In this document: positions 193 to 716 of the stretch, one piece after another
How the letters are laid out: each line of letters starts with the position of its first letter
Position numbering within the stretch: position 1 is the stretch's first letter
From: Myxococcota bacterium
Lineage (GTDB): Bacteria; Myxococcota_A; Polyangia; Polyangiales; Houyiibacteriaceae
Direction: 5' to 3'
DNA: 64,000 nt
Assembly: GCA_028284955.1 (NCBI GenBank)
Contig: JANQQS010000022.1
Location: 1 to 64,000, forward strand
The notes under the pieces: generated by a model
The model's database searches: none
The model's input: only the letters and a program-made list of their open reading frames with translations
Told to the model about the DNA's origin: nothing
Program-made: the position numbers and the translations under genes

Positions 193-296
193 GCCCCGCC
201 GCTACGCGGTGGGGCGGCCGCGCAAGCGGCCGGCGGTGGAAGGGGGGCCCCGCGGAATCGTATTCCGTGGGGGGAGGGTCTGCGGCCAGACCCTCC
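193..296. repeat. multi-stem hairpin repeat, copy 1
   Basis: Four consecutive inverted repeats are visible. Stem 1 pairs 193-202 with 206-215. Stem 2 pairs 215-221 with 226-232 around a GCAA loop. Stem 3 pairs 248-258 with 262-272 around CGT. Stem 4 pairs 273-282 with 287-296 around CGGC. A second full copy lies at 613-716. Arms of stems 1 and 3 differ in sequence between copies yet stay self-complementary, which implies selection on structure. Confidence 0.8.
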
Positions 297-311
297 GAAC
301 AATACTGTGTC

Positions 312-385
312 TGGCACCCAGACCCTCTCGCCCGGGATACGATCCCGGGCGATTCACCCAAACTCCCCCGCCAGGAGACACGTGA
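312..385. repeat. 74-bp direct repeat, copy 2, with a perfect palindrome
   Basis: Second copy of the block at 91-164. The palindrome is at 329-338 and 342-351. It is again followed, about 30 bases later, by a hairpin block (415-455), so the order 74-bp repeat then hairpin block occurs twice. Confidence 0.85.
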
Positions 386-414
386 ACTGCTGGCGTGAGT
401 AGTGAACTGCTGGG

Positions 415-455
415 GCCCCGTCGCGAAGCGATGGGGCGGACGCGCAAGCGGCCGG
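415..455. repeat. partial multi-stem hairpin repeat, copy 2
   Basis: Only the first stem is intact: 415-424 pairs with 428-437 around GAA, allowing one G-T pair. The second stem is imperfect and stems 3 and 4 are absent. This looks like a truncated member of the family at 193-296 and 613-716. Confidence 0.65.
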
Positions 456-612
456 ATAGGGACTGAGCCAGTCCTCCAGAACATTCAGTCGGAGCAGTTC
501 GTCGAGGCAGCAGTTCACTCCGAACACTACACAAAGAACAAGCGGTGCACCCCGAACACCGCACGAAGAGGCGTCGGGATTTTACGCGACGCTGAAGCCC
601 AACGAAACCGGG

Positions 613-716
613 GCCCCATCGCGGAGCGATGGGGCGGCCGCGAAGCGGCCGGCGGCGGGAGGGGGCCCCAGTCGGGTCGTACCCGACTGGGGGGAGGGTC
701 TGCGGCCAGACCCTCC
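613..716. repeat. multi-stem hairpin repeat, copy 3
   Basis: Stem 1 pairs 613-622 with 626-635. Stem 2 pairs 635-641 with 645-651. Stem 3 pairs 666-677 with 681-692 and is perfect over 12 bp. Stem 4 pairs 693-702 with 707-716. Stem 3 arms (CCCCAGTCGGGT here) differ from copy 1 (CCCCGCGGAAT) but remain complementary. The block ends 48 bases before the ATG of the downstream PLP enzyme, so it could lie in that gene's leader or promoter. Confidence 0.8.

Follow-up and report, generated by a model that had tools for sequence, protein, structure and literature searches.

Hairpin blocks at the edge of a Myxococcota contig probably belong to a non-autonomous, modular mobile element

Results and Discussion

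Organization of the hairpin array

The window, which is the first 64 kb (64,000 nucleotides) of contig C163 in a Myxococcota genome of 6.07 Mb and 223 contigs, carries an array of hairpin units at its left edge, all of its features being described here on the + strand. A 23-codon open frame runs off the left edge, which is the start of the contig, and ends with a TAG stop at 71–73, 17 nt before the element match begins. This frame is likely the end of an upstream gene, although coding is unproven at such length. The downstream gene (765–1946) starts 48 nt past the array and encodes a Cys/Met metabolism PLP-dependent enzyme (PF01053).

Unit 1 begins with a left end that we call H0 (83–178; the nhmmer match covers 91–178 and the start at 83 is extrapolated). 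It consists of a decayed outer hairpin, an inner hairpin at 107–131 (TCGCCCGGGAT ACG ATCCCGGGCGA, an inverted repeat of 107–117 and 121–131) and a C-rich linker, and is the inverted counterpart of the linker, stem 3 and stem 4 that close the unit. The remainder, as seen in the fold, comprises stem-loop 1 (193–215) with the loop TAC and one G.T pair, stem-loop 2 (216–231), a purine-rich linker (232–247) conserved in A1 and across genera, stem-loop 3 (248–272, CCCCGCGGAAT CGT ATTCCGTGGGG) and stem-loop 4 (273–296, GGAGGGTCTG CGGC CAGACCCTCC), the sequence of which is conserved in other Myxococcota. Unit 2 has an H0 at 307–409 (nhmmer, H0 positions 4–103) with its inner hairpin at 328–352, followed by a truncated core at 413–458 (nhmmer positions 1–46) in which the fold shows stem 1 intact and stem 2 broken, stems 3 and 4 being missing. 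A repeat search places a 12-nt inverted repeat (401–412 and 508–519) around this truncated core. Unit 3 is made of stem-loop 1 (613–635, loop GGA), stem-loop 2 (636–650), the linker GGCGGCGGGAGGGGG (651–665), stem-loop 3 (666–692, CCCCAGTCGGGT CGT ACCCGACTGGGG) and stem-loop 4 (693–716), which has the same sequence as stem 4 of unit 1.

The stretch from 510 to 568 contains tandem 'AGCAGTTCACCCCGAACACCGCACGAAGA' repeats (nhmmer T30) that are present in several clusters. These repeats of about 30 nt also occur in the arrays L070, L077, L078 and L095, together with the GTTGAACTGC end of H0 in inverted, complementary form.

An earlier note on this DNA had described two blocks of four consecutive stem-loops each, and our folds agree with it at 193–296 and 613–716, with minimum free energies of -75.8 and -78.1 kcal/mol and z-scores of -4.2 and -4.6 relative to dinucleotide-shuffled sequence. 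Its observation that stem 4 and its loop are alike in both blocks extends to 30 identical nucleotides (268–297 and 688–717). The inner arms of stem 3, noted to differ and yet to pair, read GCGGAAT/ATTCCGT in one block and AGTCGGGT/ACCCGACT in the other and are fully paired in both, while the two-sided change reported in stem 1 with its one G-T pair consists of G.T to A-T and C-G to T-A. Also confirmed is the partial third block, at 413–458, with stem 1 intact and stem 2 damaged. Analysis of the whole array reveals two features beyond that description, namely the inverted end hairpins at about 83–178 and 307–409, and a repeating unit of about 220 nt (91–311, the next from 312 onwards) of which the four-stem block is only the right part; positions 91–197 recur at 312–418 with 92% identity.

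A separate repeat element lies at about 1943–2140 and starts at the stop codon of the PLP-dependent enzyme gene (TAG|AGCGGCGGCCTTTTGGCC ... CAAAATTCCACTGCTTTA). It contains two hairpins (2048–2073 and 2074–2093) and has blastn relatives in about ten other stretches. Its ends, TAGAGCAG..CTGCTCTA, suggest a MITE with a TA target. Gene ends of the form TAG|AGCRR occur in 13 of the 686 called genes.

A dispersed family behind stop codons

The block belongs to a short, non-coding, dispersed element with a high copy number in its own genome. A BLAST search with block 1, in which 40 of 227 candidates were scored, yields at least 41 matching sites at E < 1e-29, and a covariance model built from 31 copies, the genome search that the earlier note had proposed, gives at least 152 listed matches in the 6.07 Mb, with covarying stems. 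The exact stem 4 pattern matches 118 + 73 times, where one hairpin may score on both strands, against none for the reversed-pattern control. The number of copies counted in the assembly is a minimum, because many contigs, C163, C143, C103 and C221 among them, begin or end inside such arrays.

Modules were mapped by profile HMMs in about 850 kb of the genome, taken in stretches. All modules lie in a single orientation in 61 of the 62 clusters mapped, in the order H0, an optional spacer (UA or UC) and a core formed by stem 1, stem 2, linker, stem 3 and stem 4, and units are often in tandem. A full unit starts with a T-rich tip, the outer hairpin, the inner hairpin with its ACG loop and the C-rich linker, and it ends with stem 4 and an A-rich tip. 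H0 read in reverse is a version of the linker, stem 3 and stem 4; the outer hairpin GAGGGTCTGG..CCAGACCCTC is common to both, and in the copies read the inner hairpin has the complementary loop (ACG against CGT) and a linker that is likewise complementary. Inverted ends of two hairpins each thus delimit the element. Core copies are 72–86% GC against 54.6% for the genome.

Gene positions come from a home-made codon-pair finder (686 genes), on which the placement part of our explanation also rests. No cluster lies inside a called gene, in agreement with the intergenic location that the earlier note had suggested checking. In 37 of 50 clusters, two of them corrected by hand, a gene on the same strand has its stop codon next to the left end, usually within 60 nt (P = 1e-5; 43% expected from intergenic length); to say that every left end lies behind a stop codon would be too strong. 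At the right end a convergent gene stops in 31 of 59 cases (P = 0.10), and gaps with divergent promoters are avoided (6/47, P = 0.003).

The core in related genomes

A scan of named genomes with stem 4 (GGGAGGGTCTG..CAGACCCTC) gives matches almost only in Myxococcota, among them the MAGs Prado145 and nzgw260, Sandaracinaceae SSF7, Loc090402 bin-0916, ACE_MYX12, a Kofleriaceae MAG and others. Three single matches outside the phylum (Flexivirga, Stenotrophomonas and Bipolaricaulota) come without linker and stem 3. A slightly looser pattern is found in 7 of 229 genomes of the phylum, all seven in the class of our genome, and its reversed control gives none; the matches number 191 in our genome and 28, 26, 19, 2, 2 and 2 in the six others (both strands may count). 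Linker, stem 3 and stem 4 together are likewise patchy and confined to this class among the 229 genomes. One carrier of the core, G035, has its 10,327,335 bases in a single contig.

In 31 of 31 cross-genus copies a hairpin stands at the stem 3 position, mostly with 10–12 pairs and with a lineage-specific sequence according to single-sequence folds. A consensus fold of the cross-genus alignment (RNAalifold) misses this stem, as MAFFT aligns the runs of C and of G out of register. Stem 4, which follows it, keeps its sequence across genera in the same copies, and the sequence around the core varies by lineage.

Some variants were observed at the margins of this set. In G117 (L240 and L241) a change in the linker goes with one in the 5' arm of stem 4 (GGAGAGGAGG with GGAGAGGTCTG/CAGACCTCTCC), and the linker there resembles a direct repeat of that arm; in L031 about 13 nt are repeated likewise. 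An alternative pairing between the linker and the 3' arm of stem 4 finds no support in our own genome, where an A-to-T change in the linker is unmatched in stem 4, although the G117 lineage changes both. L245 (G070), from another family of the order, is a MITE with CAGGCTGCTGAAAAAC ends and the same layout in different sequences, namely a G-rich linker, a CCCC..GGGG stem and a GGGGAGG..CCTCCCC stem. G273 contains 34 matches to the CAGGCTGCTGAAAAAC end sequence, and the copies read are without the core.

Transposition in two relatives

Members of the hairpin family do jump, as seen in two relatives, nzgw260 and Prado145. Family A of nzgw260 is a 143-bp element that starts with CAGGCTGCTGAAAAAC and has the inverted end CAGGGTGCGGAAAAAC at a fixed spacing. 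Matching 4-mers flank 12 of its 18 complete copies (5.4 expected; 0 of 10000 shuffles as high), and these duplications read CTAG, TTAG or CTAA (YTAR). In another genome of the class (L227), an insertion sequence with family A ends encodes a 357-aa IS5-family transposase (NF033581, 285 bits against a cut-off of 140); no autonomous element with these ends was found in nzgw260 itself. Family B of nzgw260 has other ends and the same core, with apparent TGA/TCA duplications, seen in four copies only. In Prado145 (L124), a 137-nt element flanked on either side by CTGA lies in-frame inside an FMO-like flavin monooxygenase gene. The ortholog in a genome of the same genus (L250) has an empty site with a single CTGA, and the palindromic insertion (L124:2216-2360) accounts for about 52 extra residues relative to this ortholog.

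This proof of mobility comes from relatives with different element ends, and the core alone is common to them and to our genome. Flanking duplications are undetectable in our genome (a shared 4-mer in 5 of 31 clusters; 6.6 expected). Their absence fits old or rearranged arrays, yet it is a gap in the argument. No DDE_Tnp_1 gene was found in our genome.

Pairing, loops and the source of covariation

Among 80 copies from our genome, 97.3% of 2952 stem cells pair, against 42–54% in slid-structure controls, and double-sided changes fill 279 cells against 108 in shuffles (0 of 500 shuffles as high). Mean pairwise identity reaches 93–94% in stems 1 and 2 and falls to 35% in loop 1, and the pairing is therefore not due to recent spread alone. 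The earlier note had taken such covariation to suggest selection on an RNA or a single-stranded DNA structure. The pairing is indeed kept, but the inference is weaker than it looks, because the copies of a mobile element have a common origin and because template switching can alter both arms at once. Covariation by itself is no proof of selection on an RNA.

The alternative that survives best is a structured RNA, that is, an mRNA 3' end that acts in cis as a stabiliser, a terminator or a pause and is selected at each site, with dispersal as a secondary matter, which we regard as possible but on balance unlikely. It would account for the co-orientation of the arrays behind stop codons and for the conserved core with stem 3 covarying across genera, and REPs of E. 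coli within 15 nt of a stop codon are known to influence translation (PMC12306157). The loops of stem 2 are GNA/GNRA-like on the + strand. Departures from pairing also point to the + strand, with 64 G.T against 9 A.C cells (one fixed G.T pair excluded); however, the excess is small when counted by columns (14 against 9), and a strand-biased (C-to-T) mutation could equally yield it. In the loops of stem 1, copies with a T-A inner pair have GNA in 27 of 36 cases, and copies with a C-G inner pair have TNC in 24 of 42, which is GNA on the opposite strand. GNA triloops form very stable DNA hairpins. The loop sequences hence fit a structure in DNA no less well than one in RNA, and with the GNA loops of one class on the + strand and of the other on the - strand, DNA would suit better. 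Against the structured RNA also stand the scattered occurrence of the element, carrier genomes having between 2 and 191 pattern matches, and the copy in frame within a coding gene of Prado145. Neither end is followed by a U-tract, stem 4 in the copies read being followed by the A-rich tip and not by T's, unlike an intrinsic terminator, and no Rfam covariance model matches at either of two thresholds. A structured RNA with a function of its own may nevertheless be present.

According to the next alternative, the covariation is a by-product: template switching in replication would copy one arm onto the other and leave perfect stems in the absence of selection. Switching between hairpin arms is a documented route to simultaneous two-sided change (PMC8794818; PMC7202029), and among the loops of stem 1 both a sequence and its reverse complement occur more often than expected (240 pairs against 126 shuffled). 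However, these reverse-complement loops track the C-G and T-A stem classes and are not found within one class, and in loop 1 only the middle base varies freely, the outer bases being under constraint. Template switching also leaves the constant sequence of stem 4 across genera unexplained. As the whole explanation it appears rather improbable to us.

A probable modular mobile element

We consider it quite probable that the blocks belong to a non-autonomous mobile DNA element of modular build, which works like a MITE, is arranged like a BIME and carries a conserved two-hairpin module. The linker, stem 3 and stem 4 sit in several transposon backbones of one Myxococcota class, each amplified separately in its own genome. 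The copies in our genome would have spread as in the relatives, by a transposase since lost or unrecognised. Their placement could reflect a target of the TNA/YTAR type together with selection against gene damage: copies would settle at stop codons because such targets include them and because insertions that break genes are removed. With less confidence, we suppose that the perfect hairpins are kept as tolerated or useful mRNA 3' ends, as required hairpin DNA, or as both, and that template switching helps to restore their pairing.

A role at mRNA 3' ends or the binding of a conserved host factor may explain why one module is common to several backbones, and these are the leading ideas. It is conceivable, if doubtful, that the linker, stem 3 and stem 4 form a portable functional module, acquired separately by several unrelated Myxococcota transposons, which acts as a host-factor recognition site or as a strand-polar mRNA 3'-end module and allows settlement at stop codons without harm to expression. 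Host retention, not transposase binding, would then fix the sequence of stem 4 and leave stem 3 free as long as it is paired.

Transfer of palindromes as single-stranded DNA by a RAYT (Y1) transposase, as in REP/BIME systems, is by comparison very improbable. The element is palindromic, has many copies in arrays, is 3'-intergenic and lies near stop codons, and stop codons can come from its tips, a property described for GTAG REPs (PMC3733652). The GTAG or CGTC tag, however, is absent from the foot of the palindromes, the feet in the copies read being GGAG...CTCC followed by AGAAAA. The core carriers G016, G035 and G011 have no Y1_Tnp match, the single match in our own genome is weak (30.6 bits) and has no copy near it, and the strong match in G026 has no match to the element models nearby. 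We therefore rejected RAYT as the driver, its presence being uncorrelated with that of the element and no copies flanking it. The relatives, moreover, show 4-bp direct repeats upon insertion. Such repeats are not expected of IS200/605-type transposition. The 'REP-like' reading in the earlier note thus came close in anatomy and location, and departs from the findings in the tag, in the flanking RAYT gene and in the insertion with target duplication, in the fashion of a DNA transposon, in the relatives.

That GC-rich sequence at a contig edge merely folds anyhow, by chance or through an assembly artefact, as the position of the array at the start of C163 and of many other copies at contig ends might suggest, is refuted by dozens of internal copies with unique flanks, by fold z-scores below -4 and by the slid and shuffled controls, and can practically be discarded.

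In the modular mobile element, nature has provided a series of hairpins in which one helix is variable but paired and its neighbour fixed in sequence, across genera and backbones. Such a series separates selection on structure, selection on sequence and repair by template switching, the mixing up of which affects every claim of the type 'covariation, therefore RNA' on repeated DNA. It also shows how transposons can live at stop codons, which offer them a cheap niche where genomes are compact.

Comparison with known repeat systems

In the largely open-access literature searched, we found no description of this hairpin family. It resembles MITEs, especially those of the IS5 family, in being short and geneless, with inverted ends, many copies and an intergenic bias. 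The 4-bp target duplications (YTAR; CTGA) are shared with MITEs in the relatives only, and terminal repeats matching an insertion sequence with an IS5-family transposase in nzgw260 only. The defining features of a MITE are hence present in the relatives and incomplete in our genome, where no driver was found. Classical MITEs are AT-rich (PMC3049150), whereas the present element is GC-rich, has six or more separate hairpins at its most complex and forms polar tandem arrays, and its internal two-hairpin module is common to several backbones with differing ends.

REP/BIME elements of enterobacteria and pseudomonads share with it the palindromic units, the mosaic arrays and the location 3' of genes near stop codons. 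The present units are much longer, however, and their modules all have one orientation, in contrast to the alternating one of REP/BIME, and they lack the GTAG tag and the RAYT link. BOX elements of Streptococcus pneumoniae are also modular composite repeats with strong secondary structure and variable internal modules and array length (PMC3049150). The organisms and sequences are unrelated, and the two ends of the hairpin element, unlike those of BOX, are mutually inverted. Finally, Rickettsia palindromic elements (RPE) offer a parallel to the palindrome in frame within a protein gene of Prado145; they differ from the present family, in which the copies of our genome lie outside called genes and the relatives show a clear target duplication.
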